Shown here: one piece after another, positions 48,744-59,500 of the stretch
How the letters are laid out: the number at the start of each line of letters is the position of its first letter
Position numbering within the stretch: position 1 is the stretch's first letter
DNA from: Planoprotostelium fungivorum
Lineage: Eukaryota > Evosea > Variosea > Cavosteliida > Cavosteliaceae
DNA: 64,000 nt
Direction: 5' to 3'
Assembly: GCA_003024175.1 (NCBI GenBank)
Contig: MDYQ01000026.1
Span: 1 to 64,000, forward strand
Made by a program: the position numbers and the translations under genes
Notes under the pieces: generated by a model
The model's database searches: none
Told to the model about the DNA's origin: nothing
Seen by the model: only the letters and a program-made list of their open reading frames with translations

Positions 48744-50390
48744 TTATCGCACCATCATGATGCTGTCCGATTGCAGAGTCTCGTTCGTGGCCTTCGTCTT
48801 TGGTTCCATAGAGTATGATTTTCCAACCGAGCAGTTGTTGAGGGAGCACCCATCACCGATCTGAACTTCATTGCAGATGATGCTGTTCTGCACCACGCAA
48901 CTGCACAGTTCAGTCATCTACAACGAGTCATCATCACTCACTCATCACCGATGGTGACGTAATCCATGATGATGGAGTTGATGATCTTGACACCTACCCA
49001 AGTTCAGACGAGTGATACGTAACGTACGTACCTTTCCCGATCTTGACGTGTCGACCGATGATGGATTTCTTCACGCTTCCCTTGGGGCCCATGCTGGTGG
49101 AGCTACCCACTACACTCTCTGGACCAACTTGCGTGGCCACATCGACCAGAGCAGAAGAAGAGATGAAGTTGTTCTTTCCAGGTTCTTCTTCAGGAAGATA
49201 TCCAGTCGTTCCCTTGGCCATGGAAAAGTTGGCCGAGCGATAAGTGTCGAGCGTGTTGACTCGGATGCAGTACTGATCTTCGGACATGATGTAACCGAAG
49301 CAACCCATTCCATCTTCTCTCGACGTTCTCTTGGAGGATAGGATATCGGCCATCGATTCGTTCTTCTTCTTGATGAATTCTTTCAGGCCACCTGTGATGG
49401 TGTCATCGATCATCATCATGATGGTCGGGTGATGCGATGAGACTGACCGTTCTTCGTGGGGATCTTCTTGGTTCGTTGTAGTAGGATGAGGAAGGGGACG
49501 AGTTCTTGTTTGATGGAAGAAAGGTTGTAGCCTTCTTCTTTCATCTGGGAGATCAATTCTAACACCCAATCGGCAAAGATGAAAAAGTGAGCGTCTAACA
49601 GATTCGTGTATAGCGTGACATGTTGGCTCCTGGTTCACACATTAACAACAGATGAAATAGATGTAGATGGATATATTAAAATCATTCTCATTCGATGGAG
49701 ATCGACTCACTGTTTTAAGATGTCCTTTCGAATGGCTACGTGTTCTTCCAAATCGGCTGCAGCCGTGAGAAACATGACTTTTCCTTCCGCATCTAAACCG
49801 ATGAAGTCGTTCATCAACGTCTGTGACTTCTGTTTCGCCTTCTTCTCTTCCTCGGTGAGAGGTGCATTCTTCTTCAGCAACATCGTCACAGCTGCATTTC
49901 TCGTTCTGTGGATGTCTGCCATGTGATGGAGAAAGCTTTCTGATACGATCACGTCTCCACTGATGACAATAAAGTTTCTCTGTACTCCTACAGGTTAAAT
50001 CGTGTTCCTTCGCACATGTCGAAGCAACACACCTTGATCTTGTCTTTGATTCGTAGGAGGGCATCTACCGTTCCCACACTTCCTTTCGTATTCTCAAAGA
50101 TCAGCTTGAGTTCTCCCTTGTATATCTCTCCCACGTATTTATCCAACGCCTTCATCGTCTCCATGTTGGTCAAAATGATGGCCTCTGCATCGAAGATCAC
50201 GAAAGAGAAATATATTTTTTCAACGGATATCACCTGTGAATCCAACACGTTCTAATAATTCTAATTGATAAGAGATCAACGGCCGATTAGCCACGGGTAA
50301 CATCGGTTTTGTGAGTCCTTCAGATAGAGGAGTCAACCGACTTCCTGTACCACCGGCGAGGATCACGACTTGAAACTCTGGCTTGGCCAT
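48744..50390 (-). CDS. EIF2B3: eIF2B gamma subunit (nucleotidyltransferase/left-handed beta-helix)
   Basis: Regulatory-catalytic part of the eIF2 guanine-exchange factor. ATG 50390 starts [20 protein letters not shown], then [20 protein letters not shown] and [13 protein letters not shown], the pyrophosphorylase-like N-domain of the gamma subunit. Later exons read [20 protein letters not shown] and [15 protein letters not shown], then [37 protein letters not shown] and [20 protein letters not shown]. Hexapeptide-like repeats forming the left-handed beta-helix come last: [53 protein letters not shown] and [20 protein letters not shown]. The gamma rather than epsilon assignment rests on the absence of a W2 domain, the MAKPEFQ opening and total length. 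Confidence 0.92.
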
Positions 50391-50506
50391 CACTTCTATC
50401 AGGTAGTGGTGATGCTGATGTGATCTCGCCCTTTGTAGACGAATCCAAAAAGAATTTGTATTTCTCGCGAATTTCACCAAACGAAAGAACCTCCATCATG
50501 ATTCCT

Positions 50507-50830
50507 TCATTTCTTCGTCTTCATCTTCGTCTTGCACTTTGGACATTCTATGATCTCCAGCGTGTCCGGATACTTCAACGTCACTCCACAGCCTCCACAC
50601 TTCCCCTGCTTCGTCACGGCTTGTACCTTGGGTGGTGGTGTGCTTGTGACGGGTGCAGCGTGTTGATGGTTGTTGTTGTTTGGAAAGGGATTCGGTATCT
50701 TCTGTGGATCTTCTGGTGGTGGTGCGGTGAGGAAGTGGTTCGTTCGTATCTGTTGCAGTAACTTTGGTTTTCTCGTCACAGCAGGGCTGTTGAGTATCTT
50801 CTGGTAGACTTCGCTCCACTCTTCGGGCAT
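50507..50830 (-). CDS. Small zinc-ribbon protein
   Basis: From ATG 50830 it reads MPEEWSEVYQKILNSPAVTR, a short helical N-terminus. A Pro/Asn-rich linker (PNPFPNNNNHQH) and a C-terminal four-cysteine ribbon follow: GKCGGCGVTLKYPDTLEIIE, then CPKCKTKMKTKK. The C-x2-C...C-x2-C pattern with GVTLxYP resembles LSD1-type or eukaryotic small zinc ribbons. Function is unknown. It sits between the large AZUL/SWIM gene (stop only 28 bp upstream) and eIF2B gamma (start 117 bp downstream), all on the minus strand. Confidence 0.6.
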   Translation of the reverse strand: MPEEWSEVYQKILNSPAVTRKPKLLQQIRTNHFLTAPPPEDPQKIPNPFPNNNNHQHAAPVTSTPPPKVQAVTKQGKCGGCGVTLKYPDTLEIIECPKCKTKMKTKK

Positions 50831-50857
50831 CTGTTCGTGTTTCAATACTTCTCATCT

Positions 50858-53800
50858 TCACATGATGATCACCCCCGCTTTGATATACACAGTGTAAGCC
50901 CTACACATCCAATTGACAAAGAAGGCATAATCAGTGGAGGCAGTCACGTGTAATGCCATGTTGTCTCTGTTTGTGAATGAATGGAAGTGATGACGATGAG
51001 GTGACGTACACGATGGTTCGGACGAGGGTGACGGCGAGGTGAGGTTGGATGTCTGTGAGACGTTCTAGAATCTGCATGCGGGTGGATGTTGGTGTCCACA
51101 GAGAGAAATCAGCATTCTTTCCTGTAGTTGTCAGGGGACGATGATGATGTGCATGATGATGCGGTGTGATGAGATCACCTGACAGGAGAGTCTGTTCGAA
51201 GAGATGCCAGATACGATTCAAGACGGGAGCGTTCACGTGACCGTTGGAAACGGCCTCGACGCACAACAAGAGCGCCGATTGTTTCCTCTCTTCCGTTCCC
51301 GCGTTGATGATGACTGAGCTCGCATCGATCGTCAACCTTTCGTCATCAGATCATCATCATCAGATCATCATCATCTCCATCATCTCCATCATCATCGTGT
51401 GAATCTGAATCTCACCCTTCAGATAGGTAGATCTCCAAACGATCTCTCTCCTTCTGCATGTCCAAGTTGTTCAGTGACTTTAAATGCTGGATCATCTTCG
51501 ACTTGTGCAGGGGCCAATTGTCGCTCGTCTCCCTCACTCTCTGAAAGTTCTTCACGTTGGGCTGAGATTTGAAACCGGCCACGGCAAAATCAGCCGCCGC
51601 CGATGGCGTGGCAAACTCTTGTGCTACGACACAGAATGTCTCACAGATGAGACCTCTGTCAAAGTCACCGGGTGCCTCGATGGACTGCTTGGCCCACTGC
51701 AGGGCCAAGAGGGTGTCCTTCTGCAAGATCATCTTCGCTCCGTTGTAGAGCGATTCACTGCTGACAGAGAGGAGTTCGTGTGCGATGTCGAAGGCCTTCG
51801 ATCGATCCAACTGACAGATCTCCAGATCTTCATCCGATGCATTCAAGCTCATGCTCAGGAGCTTCATACCGGTATTGGTATCCGTCAACTGTGGTACACT
51901 GCCGTCGTCATCTCTCCATCTCAGTCGATTCGAATTCACCTGGCCGACTTCGCGCAGAGCTTGAGTGCGTTGAGTGGATCACTCGCCTCCAGCAATTTGA
52001 TCGTCTCGTTGACACAGTCTCTCAGGTAAGGTGGTTCCAGCAGCATCTGCATGAGATTCTCCTTCGTCCTCTCGATGAAATCTATCATGGAGATACCCGT
52101 GAGTCGTTCGTCGTACTCTGTGATGATGGAAGCTTCCTTTGCGTTGGGGAGTAAGAGTGTTCTCATGATCCACAAGAAGGATTCTTTTCGGCCGTTGACC
52201 GTGGTAGGGATTCCAATCACGGCGAGCCCGACGGCAGTTCTGTAGTCCTTCGCCTTGAAGAAACTCTCCCACAAGTTGGGCACGTTCTCCGTCAGGCTCT
52301 TCCTCTTCACCGTGTCGATCACTTTCCTCCTCTCTTCCATCAGCCCAGAGTTGTTTCCCGCGTAAATCTCCTTGTACATTCTCTCTATGAGGACTTTGAA
52401 CGCGTCCCAATCGTAGATGGTCCCCGACGTGTTGATCATGACGAGAGGTGCAGAAGCTTCGTGGCGGAGGAGCTCTTTGAATGTGGTCTGATAGACGTGA
52501 TCTCCGTGTTTCATCTTTCGGATGAAATCGAATAGGAGGTAACGGTGGGTCGTGCGGAGAGTGCCGACGAGTTCGGGTAGTTTGAATGGATGACCCTGTG
52601 TGTTGAGTTGTATGGCCACCCAGACGGCGACGAAGGATTGGGTGTGGGATTCGAAGAGGGAGGCAAAGTTGAATTCTTTCGATCTCTGGTCGACCACCAG
52701 CTTGGAGGCGAGTTGAAGTAGCAGAGGTTCGGAGATGGCTGTGCATGTCAATTTGTATGTACGGAGGAAGAGTTTCTTAGATAGAGACGAGTAGTTGTGA
52801 CTCACTTGTGGGCAGTCGTCTCAGTGTCGTGTGATCAATGTCCGATCGGTGGTGTGCGAGGGTATAGGCCGACAGTTTGAACAGAGAGGGTACGTTACCA
52901 TTCGATCTCATCTGCTCCTCCCTGACGTACCGTGCATCAAAGTAGAATTCCATCATGTTCTTCATGTGGGTGAGTATGACGTGATTGGGAGGCACGTCTT
53001 CCTTCATAGAGGAGACCTTCTTGATGCACTCGTAATAAGCCGTGGGGATCCGGAACTTGTGGATCTGGGCGAATTCGAGCATTTCCGTCGGTCGAAATTT
53101 GTCCATGGCAACGTCGAGGGCCTCGTGGTACCTCTCTAATTGGACGAGACAGTCAGCCACGTCCGTGTAGAATTCAGCGTAGCGTGCGAGGTTGTAGCAC
53201 TCTTGCAGGCGTGATTGATCCTTGAGGAATTGTATCCTGTATTCGGTCGTGCAGGCTTCCTCTTTGAATTGAATCTGTTCGTCTCCTCTCAACACTTTGA
53301 GCAGATCTGGGTGATCCCATCCGTTCAATAAGACCTGATCGAGTGAGTCGAGAGAACGGAGGATGAGACAATAAAGAGAAGAAGAGAAAGAGAAGAAGAG
53401 AAAGGGAAAGAGATGAATAGAGAAGATGGCTGACCTCTGAGATGACTACGAAGCCTTCCTTACGGGTGTCCAGGAGATTACTGTTGGCACTCATAACCAT
53501 CTCTGAAGTCCATCCTCTGATTTCTGAGGCCCATTCTTTTCGAGCTGATTCGTTCATCTTGTATCTCAGCTGTCTTTCCATCAATACATTCACTCTCTTC
53601 ATTCTCACCTTCTCGACGTAAAAGATCCACATGTGAATGAGAGCCTTCAGTTTCGCATCCCACATATCCAACAGTTGATTCGAATTGCTGATGACTCCGA
53701 ATCTGTACCTTTTCAGCATTCGCCTCCTCTTCTATCTCACTTGTCCTGAGATGGATTGCAAGTGGCCCAGTAGGATGTCAGTTCAAAGAGAGCACTGAAT

Positions 53801-56450
53801 CCATTGAAGGTGTGTTCGTTGTCGAGGAACTGTATGATGCGAGAGACCAGCAGATCGAATGCATCCTCCAAATCGAAGAAAGCTTCGGTGTTGATCAACC
53901 GAGGTCGATTCCAATGTCTCTGCTGGTGAGCCGTCGCAATTTCTTCTGGATAAGGTGTGTCGTACATTATCCACGGATCTTCATCCACCCAATCGGGTTC
54001 CTCTTCATCTTCATCTTCCTCTTCGTCTTCATCATCGATCTATGTCTCATCAGTGATGAATGTACATCGATGTGTAATCACCGAATCACTGTCCGATTGA
54101 GGATATGTGGATGCAACCAACTGTAACTTGTCGAGAGAGTCGCCGATGGTGTCGTTGAACCATTCTAAATTGAGAACAGGCTCCGTCCTCTGATCAGCTT
54201 TGCAGTATTCTGTGACTCATCAATCGATGTGATGACATGCATCGATGATCACCTTGCATCAAACGGTTTTCCATCATGTGTGGTTCTCTGAGAAAGTCAT
54301 CCAGGATGGATACGTTGGATCGATTGAGGAGAACGAGATTGATGAGAAAACTCTTGCTCTCTTCCGCTGATAATTTCACGATGCGATCTACAACGGTAGA
54401 GAACCGATTCACTTGCTGCGGCTGTCTCATTTGTCAGCCTCTCGATGAATGATATCATCGTTCTGATCAAGAGGTAGAAAGAGCCTCACATTTGCCATGA
54501 CGAACAATAGAGTGGCTACCACGTGAGAGCACCAAGAGGACATCAGGTTACAGCTGCAGCTGGCATCGACAATTTCAGCACTGTCGTTCATGAAGACCTG
54601 TATCTGTTCTCCTTCCTTCATCTTCCCCTCCACCCTTCCCTGGTCAGCCCCTTCTACTCTTCTTATCCCTCTCACCTTCTCCCCACAACAAAGACAGACT
54701 CCACTTGTTTGTCTGTCAGCAGAGCTTGGCCTGCATTGTAAGCAGCTGGGAGACTGTACATATGGATGACAGTCTCATCGATATCAGGAATGCTCTCTCG
54801 CTCGATGACGGATGTGACGTGTGGCTTCTTCGTGATGGATTCGGTGGGCTTCGATACATCCATGTCATCCCTCGTCTCTCTCTTCTCTTCCTCCATCGAT
54901 GTGGTCTGCATGGCATCTTCTGCTTGATCCTTTTCCTGACTAGCGGCTGAGGTCTTCTCTCCCCTGACTTCCAGCTCCATCGGCTCGGGTTGTGTGGAGA
55001 AAGTTTGGGAAGGTGGTAGAGATTCGGTGTCTGTATCGTTGTGTGGTGTAGAGTCTCTGGGCTCTGTCGTCGTCTCTGCTGGTGTCGTCTGGGTCACTGT
55101 GTTTTCCGTTGGTGCCGGTTGCGTCTGTGTCGCTGCGTCCTCTCTTGGTGCTTGGGTAGTACTCTCTTGTGATGTTTGAGGCTCTTGAGAAGCTAGAATG
55201 GTTCCCTTGTCTTGTGAAGATGTGGTCTCCTGTGATAAGGCACTCTCTTGTGATGGAAGATTCTGTTGTGTCGCCTCCTTCTCTTGTGAAGGGATAATCT
55301 CTTGTGTTGATGAAGAATTCTCTTGGATCTTCTCGGTGACTGTTTCTGATGATACGTCGATATGATTGATATTCAAAACGAAAACAGATCAGACAGACAC
55401 CATCAAGTCACCTGCTTCTTCCGTGTTCAACGTGCTCTCCTTCGTTCCTTGTGCGGCTGGTATCTCCGTTATCCTCTCTGCAGGCCCCGCTTGAACTCCA
55501 TCCGTTGACTTCTTCAGCGTCGGTGTATCTACGGTTATCGGCTTCTCAACAGATCCTGGTTGTCCCTTCTCGATGTGATTGGATAGGATGTCGATGTGTA
55601 GATCTCTCGTTCCAGTGCAGCTAAGACGCATGGCGAGTACGGCGGCGATGTTCGGGTTCTTGGGTCCCTCTGTTGGTGGATGAGGAGTGTGATCTCATCG
55701 CGATGAAAGAGGTGGAGAGACTCACGAGGACCAGAAGCACAAAATTGGCTGGTACATGCAGTTTGACCACATCCCTGTGTCAATTGTTGAAAGTACCTGT
55801 GTCACGTGAGCTGATCGAGGTGAAAAAGGGTGGCTCACGTTCGGATGAGTTCGTGGGGATTTGTCTTTTGGATTTTCCTCGTCGGTTCTTCTGAAGATGT
55901 TGTCTGTGACGAGAAACCGTAAGCGATGGGTGATGTGATGGCGTAATGTCACCTCGTCCAATTTCCTCTTCTTCGAATTATCATTCGACTGCTCTGTCGT
56001 GGGCTCTACGGCAGGTGGATCAATGGGAACATCCGCAGGCTCCATCTTGATTGGAATCATATTCACACGAGCGTTCGTAGGCTGCTCTTGAGCGTTCTCG
56101 CCTGTTTCTTCTTTCTTCTGCTGTTCATCTTCTGTCTTCTCTTCTCGTGATGCATCAGATGGATTGGGTGCATTATCAACGCAGAGACTCAGTGTGGGGT
56201 CCAGACATTTTTTAATGGCGATGGCCGCTGCTTCATTCGGTGCCAATGCATTTTCTACATCGAGTGAGATGTGATTTTACGACGAGAGTGTTGAACTCAC
56301 TGGCACCAGTGGCGCAATTAGGATTCACACAAGATTCTCTCTTACAACCCTGAGTCAATTGGACAAAGAGTCTGAAGTCATGTGAGCCTCACATCGACAG
56401 AATTCTTCTTACTTTTGGAACTTCAAACGAAACAATTCCTTTGCATCCAT
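50858..56450 (-). CDS. Tandem AZUL and SWIM zinc-finger protein, ZSWIM-like
   Basis: The exons join in frame through short GT-AG introns. After MDAKELFRLKFQK (ATG 56450) comes AZUL domain 1: LFVQLTQGCKRESCVNPNC, NEAAAIAIKKC and LSLCVDN. It has the C-x4-C-x4-C spacing plus a late Cys, as in human UBE3A. AZUL domain 2 (55,800-55,600) reads YFQQLTQGCGQTACTSQFCA, then NPNIAAVLAMRLSCTG, nearly the UBE3A text GCGNEACTNEFCASC. Next is a long SQ/TQ-rich disordered linker (about 55,380-54,860). A SWIM finger follows (54,650-54,530): EGEQIQVFMNDSAEIVD, ASCSCNLMSSWCSHVVATLL, with C-x-C...C-x-H. About 1,000 residues of helical, TPR-like sequence follow (CLVQLERYHEALDVAMDKF). AZUL binds the proteasome subunit RPN10/PSMD4, and animal ZSWIM8 is a cullin-3 adaptor, so a ubiquitin-proteasome role is inferred. 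No HECT domain is seen. One intron at the linker/SWIM border needs an uncommon GTTGTG donor, so two adjacent genes remain possible. Confidence 0.7.
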
Positions 56451-56572: not shown

Positions 56573-59500
56573 CTATTCCCTCTTTGCCTTTCCATCGTCC
56601 TTCTCCTTGTTCGCCTGCATTCGATGAGTTCTACATCCATCGATATACCATACCTGTTGGTGCAGGTGATACTGGTGCATCTGCTCGGCGACGGCTCCCT
56701 GTGCCATGTGGAAGAGGTTTCTCAGAGTGGACTCTGCAACGGAACGAACGGGACCCAACATTCCAAGAAGGGACAGAACGTAAAGACCTCCACCCAAGAA
56801 GACGACCATGACCAACAGGAAGGGGTTCGAGACGACCGTCACGGCCTCATCGAATCCAAAGAAGATGAGGAGGAGGATGAGGAGGTAAGGGACGTTGCCC
56901 TGCTGCGCCGCGTGCTCTTGCTCGCGGACGGCCTGTCTGTAGATGCCCTGGGCGTTGCTTCTAAACTTCTCTCTGACCCTCTCCACTTCTTCCAGTGGCA
57001 TGACGATCAATTTGGGGTCCACCTCGTCGTAGTATCCTGCTGACGTCAGATCTTTCTTTCAAGTTGAATCACCCTTGTCTACATCGAGGAATTCCTTCGA
57101 ATCGTCGGCCTCGTCGAGACGTAAGACGGCAAAGTACTCGAGCAGCTCGTCTCCCTGTCTCCATCAGCATCATGCATGTGTCATCATCATCATCGTCTCT
57201 ACCTTCTGTTTGGCCTCTTGGTATTCCTTCGAGACGTCATCGCTGGGCTTCCATCTTCTGGGGATGTTATCCGAGTCCATGCTGAAGTTCTGCTCGAATC
57301 TGAAGGAGTGAGTGATGATGACAAGGTGAGTGATGATGACAAGGTGAGTGATGATGACAAGGTGAGTGATGATGACAAGGTGATGATGAGATCACCTCTT
57401 TGTGAGTAAGACATCGAGGTATCTGATCTTATCGGTGAATCTCTTCTTCAGTACGTCGAATTGGGCGGTCTGGAGGTCTGAGACCTTCTTCTCCGTCTCT
57501 TCTTCACTGATCTCGAATCCTGATCATCGTTCAGAACATCATGTGATCATCATGTCGATGATGATGGATGATGAAGGTGACGTACCCTGCAGGTGCTCCT
57601 TGAAAGACTGAACGTCCTTTGAGGTGAGATCAGCATATCGACTTCTGATCTTGGGCCACATGTCACTACCCGGGTTATCCAAGATGCGCTCCACGTGCTT
57701 TCCAAAGCCCGCGTTGAATTGTGCCTGATCGTCTCAATTCCAATATCTCTCCTTCACCAACTCACGCTGTGCTCGCTGATCAACTTCTCCAATTGGGACT
57801 TCTTGGCAATCTCAACGCTCTTGTTGATGGTGGACTTGAGCTCGCCGAGTTGTAGATCGTAGCTCCACTCTAATTCGGGGACGAGACAGGCTGGTGAGAT
57901 TAAGCATTCGTCACACACGATCGAAGTTCACCATCAGCTCGGTTGGAGAAATGCTCCACAGTGGAAGAGACGACGGACTCTTTGATCTTGTTGAAATCGG
58001 TGGCAGCCTTACCATCGGCAGGGAGACTGTCGTTCAATACCTTATTGAAGAAAACGGTCGATTTCTGTTCGTCTTCAGATGCGTTCCAAGGTCTCCCTTC
58101 ACCTCGATCAGTTTGTTGAGTTGGAGGGTGAAGAGAGAGTAGAGCATGTCGTTGGCAGCGTGAGACAACGATTCTCTCTTCTGTTGGGCCACAGTCTTAT
58201 CGTAACGCAGTGCCTGTTGATCGTATCCCTCTGTCCATCATAAACGTCTCAACACCAACGAGTTCGTCTGAAGGAGAGACTCACCCAGTAACTGTCTGTA
58301 AGCAGTCGTGGCCTTCAGACCGAAATCTTCCACGATGTCACCGGCTTCAAGAGTCTTTCTGAAAGGCGTGATCGCAGCCACAAAAGTCTTCTGAACGTCG
58401 GCCGAGATCTCATCACAACGGAAGATGGCCAACATGGCCTTCTGTGACGGAATGTTGAGATCCTTGTTGTCCTTGATCGTTCTCTATCGAGTGTCATCCA
58501 TCATCCCATTACATCCAACCACTCACCCAGATGGTAGAAGCGAAGATGGCGAGGCCGTCGGCAGGCACGTCTGTTCGGTGGGTGTCCTTATCAATTCCCA
58601 AGATGAAGTTCTCGTTGTTGGCCTCGAGGAATCTGTGTCTCAGATTTTCCACTCCACGGTTGAAATCTTCTTCGGCGAGAATCTTGTGAGACAAGGCGGT
58701 GTACTGGAATTCGAAGAAATCTTCGACCTTGGAGTTGGCGAATTCTTCGGGCTGTTGGATGTCAGATGATGAGATGATGAGATGATGATATGATGATGAT
58801 CCGGCTGACCTTGTTCAGAGTCTTCCAGATGTCGTACATGTCCTTGTTGATGGAGGCCTTGAGCTTGTCGAGGGAAGTATCCTTGGAAACGTGGTCACGG
58901 ATGACAAAGAGGAGGATCTTCTTGGCGCCTCTGAGAGTGAAGTGAGTGAGAGGTGATGATTGAGATGATGTCATGTGAAATGTCAAGAGTCTCACCCGGT
59001 ACGCTGGAACAATTGGAGGTTGAGCTCAAAGACAGTCTTGAGGAGGGAGATGTTTCCTGCATTGTATCTTCCAACGTCATTGTGCCACATGTTGACCAAG
59101 AGGACCTCAGATAAGGCCAAGGCGAAGAGAGAAGACTTTCTCTCCCAGCTCTGTCTCGGTCAGAGAAAATGAGAGACATCTATCACTCACGGCGGCAGCC
59201 TCTCCACGTTCTCTGGAGTCGGTACCCTCAACATCGAAGACAAGGATGTTCTCTTGTTGGGCCGAGTTGGTTCTAGCTCTTCCCATCCATACTCCTGTGT
59301 CGAGTTAGACACCATTACAAGATCAAGAGGCGACAGAGACATGGAAGGGTCTTACCTTGCGTGGTCTGTGTTCTTCCCTCTGAAGCCTCCATAACAGGGA
59401 AAGTGGTGCCAAAGAGGAGATTGAGAAGGGTACCTGTGACTCGATCAACGAGAGAACGTAAGGGGGTTACGCACTCTTTCCAGAGCTCTGGCATCCTAAG

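Follow-up and report, generated by a model that had tools for sequence, protein, structure and literature searches.

A Planoprotostelium gene model joining two AZUL domains, an SQ/TQ cluster and a SWIM finger: a candidate HECT-free scaffold for Rpn10

UBE3A is the Angelman-syndrome ligase, and its AZUL domain is its grip on the proteasome. In humans the AZUL domain binds the RAZUL tail of Rpn10 with an affinity of 12 nM (PMC7064531). Among 258 HUL4-group proteins 84 have the AZUL-HECT structure and four have other, unspecified structures (PMC5913265). In ZSWIM8, a CUL3 substrate receptor, the BC/CUL3-box and the D-domain belong to the ligase unit (PMC13083262). Here we describe a gene that combines features of both kinds of protein. 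It lies at 50507..56450 (minus strand, stop included) in a 64,000-nt stretch of Planoprotostelium fungivorum DNA (contig MDYQ01000026.1, positions 1 to 64,000; hereafter the window) and is modeled with 20 exons, 19 GT-AG introns (32-100 nt) and a product of 1,649 amino acids (aa). The domain order is AZUL, AZUL, SQ/TQ-cluster linker, SWIM finger, a probable TPR/HEAT-like solenoid and a zinc ribbon.

The original prediction had recognized two cysteine modules with AZUL identity and had named beforehand, as one result that could overturn it, an AZUL profile search without a hit to either; both modules lie at the positions it gave, and both matched. When the spliced protein was compared with Pfam AZUL PF16558 (cut-off 23.8 bits), AZUL1 (56181..56429, minus strand, exons 1-3, aa 8-61) scored 45.8 bits (E 7.2e-12) and AZUL2 (55596..55858, minus strand, exons 4-6, about aa 153-207) 53.8 bits (E 2.2e-14), each over the cut-off by itself. 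In PDB searches AZUL1 matched the UBE3A AZUL 6u19_B (E 6.6e-4) and AZUL2 matched UBE3A chains with E values of 1.2e-7 to 7.6e-6. The ligands of AZUL1 (C22, C27, C32, C61) have the spacing of human UBE3A (44, 49, 54, 83). The aligned residues of AZUL2 are C168, C173, C178 and H207, with His instead of Cys in the fourth-ligand column, and the PF16558 match stops at about aa 199, short of H207; H207 is probably the fourth, putative ligand, and if it acts as such the set is complete. A six-frame PF16558 scan of the 36.9-Mb genome listed three matches, which are both exons here and one on contig C281, the latter on the same strand as a HECT domain and about 1.9 kb ahead of it. We take the C281 AZUL and HECT to be the genome's UBE3A-like ligase; the two parts could not be chained into one gene model. 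A splice-chain search by dynamic programming (DP) on C281 started in the HECT region, continued downstream into sequence that is apparently unrelated and omitted the AZUL exon, and is thus not decisive alone. The core exons of AZUL1 (56301..56371, minus strand) and AZUL2 (55726..55796, minus strand) are each 71 nt long and flanked by a phase-2 and a phase-1 intron, as is the C281 core exon. This identity of length and phases in all three AZULs found in the genome supports both the splice model and common descent of the domains. In pairwise comparison the three and the human AZUL share few residues (identities in 17-23 of 51-56 columns), which suggests a duplication that is not recent.

In the window the splice-chain DP yielded a single stop-free chain from 56388 to 50510 with a score of 4719; the best of 30 dinucleotide shuffles scored 2153, and the antisense strand 1912. 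These scores come from a local version of the DP, in which the linker score exceeds 200 of 200 shuffles; an earlier version had been unfair to the shuffles, since 0 of 30 got as far as the end. The gene had been drawn only as far as 50858; its 3' end is at 50507 and the extension contains the C-terminal zinc ribbon that had been missed. The scans agree with the predicted lack of a HECT ligase domain: with the full protein as query Pfam gives no HECT match at E<=1, and the 37 HECT matches that a scan of the genome lists are all on contigs other than the gene's own (C200). NCBIfam scans yielded no match over cut-off.

Evidence for a single gene comes from the linker (54936..55307, minus strand, aa 282-405), which had been described as SQ/TQ-rich and holds 15 S/T-Q motifs. 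An SQ/TQ cluster domain is defined by at least three SQ/TQ motifs within 100 residues; 12 of the motifs lie within aa 282-354, and the linker qualifies as such a cluster. For aa 269-460, which contain all 15, none of 2000 dinucleotide shuffles of the DNA reached that count (mean 3.0, maximum 9), and 10,000 amino-acid shuffles of the linker gave a mean of 5.8 (p 0.0001). The other two frames of the linker DNA have two motifs each, the motifs are encoded by 10 different codon pairs, and no DNA tandem repeat was found in the linker. This stretch is very likely translated in the gene frame, as judged from its motif content. Fourteen of the 15 motifs are located upstream of the first in-frame Met (54980), a number that 0 of 2000 shuffles of that stretch reached (mean 2.5, maximum 12), and upstream of this Met the exon-7 frame runs into a stop at 55391 before any ATG is met. 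Therefore the linker exon must be spliced from upstream, where the nearest coding exon is that of AZUL2. The alternative is two adjacent genes, one for a tandem-AZUL protein of roughly 270 aa and one for a SWIM-solenoid protein. In its favor, exon 6 can read through to the TGA at 55391, exon 7 has five in-frame Mets from aa 391 onward, the one relative found (P0001, see below) has no AZUL part, the splice-chain DP can cross from gene to gene, and an open frame is a weak sign of coding: shuffling aa 269-390 leaves 242 of 2000 sequences without a stop. Against two genes stand the 14 motifs located before any Met in the frame on the SWIM side, which call for an upstream start, and the junction itself: intron 6 (55346..55411, minus strand), between the AZUL exons and the linker-SWIM exon, is 66 nt long, too tight compared with the roughly 120-nt intergenic gaps on either side of the gene. 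This junction is also the least secure part of the one-gene model. We consider a pair of genes very improbable, and the assignment of the AZUL, linker and SWIM exons to one gene very probable from the sequence, well supported if not proven. No poly(A)-like signal was seen after the gene's stop or after the exon-6 read-through stop and one was seen after the Sey1-like neighbor; these signals are not informative.

Docking on the proteasome had also been proposed; the partner is present in this genome, and the AZUL contacts are kept in part. The assembled Rpn10 gene (C173:326800-329300, minus strand) encodes a VWA domain, one UIM that passes its cut-off and, in the tail, a RAZUL segment similar to the human RAZUL structure 6u19_A (E 2.8e-9). 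Two more UIM-like stretches are visible by eye in this Rpn10. PMC7064531 names 13 RAZUL contact residues; when the alignment is inspected by eye, eight of them are identical here, four are hydrophobic exchanges and one is changed (A351 to Glu). The AZUL-side contacts 33, 37, 67, 69 and 70, also compared by eye, are hydrophobic in both AZULs of the window. We give an even chance to the reading that the product of this one gene is a non-catalytic scaffold which uses AZUL to dock on Rpn10. In such a scaffold at least one AZUL would bind the RAZUL tail of Rpn10, as that of UBE3A does, the SWIM/solenoid part would hold a client or an RNA-protein complex, and phosphorylation of the linker by ATM/ATR-type kinases would control the link between them. 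The protein would bring cargo to the proteasome, or contend with the UBE3A-like ligase for the RAZUL tail, and would itself carry out no ubiquitylation. More tentative is the full proposal of a HECT-free AZUL class, with two AZULs of which one is CCCH, which would use the Rpn10 tail alongside the UBE3A-like ligase and act as a kinase-regulated adaptor, either delivering SWIM/solenoid complexes or displacing UBE3A. The avidity once expected from two AZULs is doubtful as stated, because the regulatory particle contains Rpn10 in equimolar amount (PMC7064531); avidity would require a pair of particles or else a further partner, for instance a ubiquilin.

Several observations weigh against the docking scaffold. 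Where UBE3A has the contact L73, AZUL1 has Lys and AZUL2 has Arg (or Met, if one residue is gapped as in an alternative alignment); AZUL2 further carries Pro for A29 and Cys for Y76. The C281 AZUL differs from UBE3A as well, having Thr at 67, Lys at 70 and Ala at 76, and as far as the alignment tells, none of the three AZULs found in the genome keeps the contacts well. The best match of the Rpn10 tail is 8amz_W, which we take to be plant Rpn10 (E 1e-14, better than human Rpn10). Yet AZUL-HECT proteins have never been detected in plants, according to PMC5913265, so that an AZUL partner cannot be predicted from a RAZUL by itself. The human UBE3A AZUL also binds the UBA region of UBQLN1/2 (PMC12772957). 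The database protein P0001 lacks the AZUL and SWIM parts, starting after the SWIM finger and covering the C-terminal two thirds only, and a protein search with the N-terminal part found nothing, not even UBE3A. Codon scores for aa 270-380 are -0.10 (all) and -0.20 (synonymous) in the true frame and higher in another frame (-0.05 and 0.07); with another frame ahead, they were dropped as proof of linker coding in favor of the SQ/TQ frame test. It is possible that the anatomy is right and that the AZULs bind a partner other than Rpn10, such as ubiquilin or a lineage client, in another pathway, for example the DNA-damage response via the SQ/TQ cluster. The UBQLN1/2 binding in humans, the swap of L73 for Lys/Arg and the strength of the cluster all fit this explanation, whereas 12 of 13 RAZUL contacts in the Rpn10 of the same genome are identical or hydrophobic, and the five AZUL contacts listed above remain hydrophobic in both domains, which speaks for Rpn10.

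The SWIM zinc finger (54505..54597, minus strand, aa 505-535, C-x-C-x6-C-x-H) bears on another explanation, in which the protein is a ZSWIM8-like cullin-3 ligase receptor with two added AZULs that passes its substrate to the proteasome. The finger is the weakest element of the architecture. The original prediction had placed it and the long helical region in the reading chain of the AZULs; the chain holds as a single open frame, and the finger exceeds the PF04434 cut-off (19.6 bits) only as a lone segment (23.3 bits), scoring 18.2 bits in the full-length scan. In the six-frame Pfam scan of the genome it goes undetected, and the only SWIM match there lies outside the window, at C90:51652-51732. 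A splice acceptor at 54598, upstream of the finger, was rejected as it leads to a stop after three codons and breaks the frame, and 54635 was used instead (intron 54675-54635, minus strand). A 160-aa segment with the finger aligns to ZSWIM8 (9rwz_N) over 63 residues with no gap (E 0.0017), which supports the SWIM assignment and is an argument for a cullin-3 receptor, together with the presence of cullins and Argonaute-type Piwi domains in the genome and the report that the SWIM domain organizes the E3 superdomain in ZSWIM8 (PMC13083262). The likeness is confined to the finger and about 30 residues beyond it, into the first D-domain residues. With the full protein as query ZSWIM8 is matched at E 0.034 only, the 287 aa downstream of the finger have no PDB match at E<=10, and TPR_ZSWIM8 gave no hit in a search that had no positive control. 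The BC-box consensus [APST]LxxxCxxx[AILV] has no match in the 1,649 aa, though a degenerate box could escape the pattern. The cullin-3 idea thus comes down to the SWIM finger; the case is weak, and we consider the receptor role foreseen in the original prediction improbable.

The long helical region (50873..53569, minus strand, exons 13-19) is probably a TPR/HEAT-like solenoid. Structure prediction reached a pLDDT of 48 for P0001 alone and 57.8 for P0001 with the window exons; Foldseek and VIA-align returned generic TPR/HAT/HEAT proteins at low TM scores, and no family is claimed. ZSWIM8 is not among the structure matches listed, a listing that excludes nothing. The zinc ribbon (50525..50599, minus strand, aa 1620-1644, CxxC-x14-CxxC) is FORGETTER1/LSD1-like. 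Against PF23548 (cut-off 27 bits) it scores 25.7 bits in a 51-aa segment and 19 bits in the full protein, both below the cut-off, and the ribbon of P0001 scores 27.2 bits, just over it. P0001, a JGI metagenome protein of 1,062 aa, is the sole relative that the protein searches yielded, one of which scored just the 7992 candidates sharing most words. It is 34% identical over 81% of aa 470-1649, ribbon included. Its aa 711-969, a C-terminal solenoid block, reach 62% identity versus 37% for the whole protein and have no Pfam match at E<=10. A PDB profile search with the alignment of P0001 and the window protein gave three weak matches (best E 0.46, SAC3). No relatives were found in genome contigs or viral contigs, one genome-contig scan being run with poor acidic patterns. 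Searches for a second copy in the genome, in which only the best candidates were scored, returned this gene in 3 of 3 matches with the SWIM segment and one other match, at E 0.27, with exon 16.

Both neighbors are on the same strand, each about 120 nt from the AZUL gene. The upstream one (56576-57058, minus strand) ends with a Sey1/RHD3-type three-helix bundle (PF20428, E 1.7e-14); the downstream one (50223-50495, minus strand) begins with a nucleotidyl-transferase domain (PF00483, E 6.7e-11) and is perhaps an eIF2B subunit. HECT, cullin and Piwi matches in the genome are partly paired, with identical scores on different contigs (C173/C377, C364/C391, C208/C92), which perhaps reflects uncollapsed haplotypes or a duplicated assembly.

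If the docking scaffold is real, UBE3A would not be the only protein able to use the Rpn10 dock; the dock may be shared and may serve non-catalytic proteins, and what else uses RAZUL becomes directly testable. The natural AZUL variants found here, in which a ligand column holds His or a contact position holds Lys or Arg, would be useful to probe what the AZUL-RAZUL interface needs. As to the novelty claimed for the layout, literature searches on the AZUL domain turned up no description of AZUL combined with SWIM; an unpublished annotation, for example in the Pfam or UniProt architecture tables, may exist. Compared with FORGETTER1/LSD1-type ribbons, the protein has the same C-terminal CxxC-x14-CxxC arrangement and differs in that its ribbon is under the cut-off and no further FORGETTER1 match came up in the Pfam scan. 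With ZSWIM8 (PDB 9rwz) it shares the SWIM finger with the 30 or so residues that follow, a long helical body and a similar size (the ZSWIM8 chain has 1,866 aa); it differs from ZSWIM8 in its added AZULs, the unmatched BC-box consensus and the lack of detectable homology outside the SWIM region. Compared with the AZUL-HECT ligases UBE3A/E6AP and fungal HUL4A, it has two AZULs, a SWIM finger and helical body in place of a HECT match, and His in the fourth-ligand column of AZUL2. It resembles them in the AZUL profile match, the ligand spacing and the N-terminal placement of the domain, and its core exons agree in length and phases with the AZUL exon that lies next to a HECT domain in this genome.

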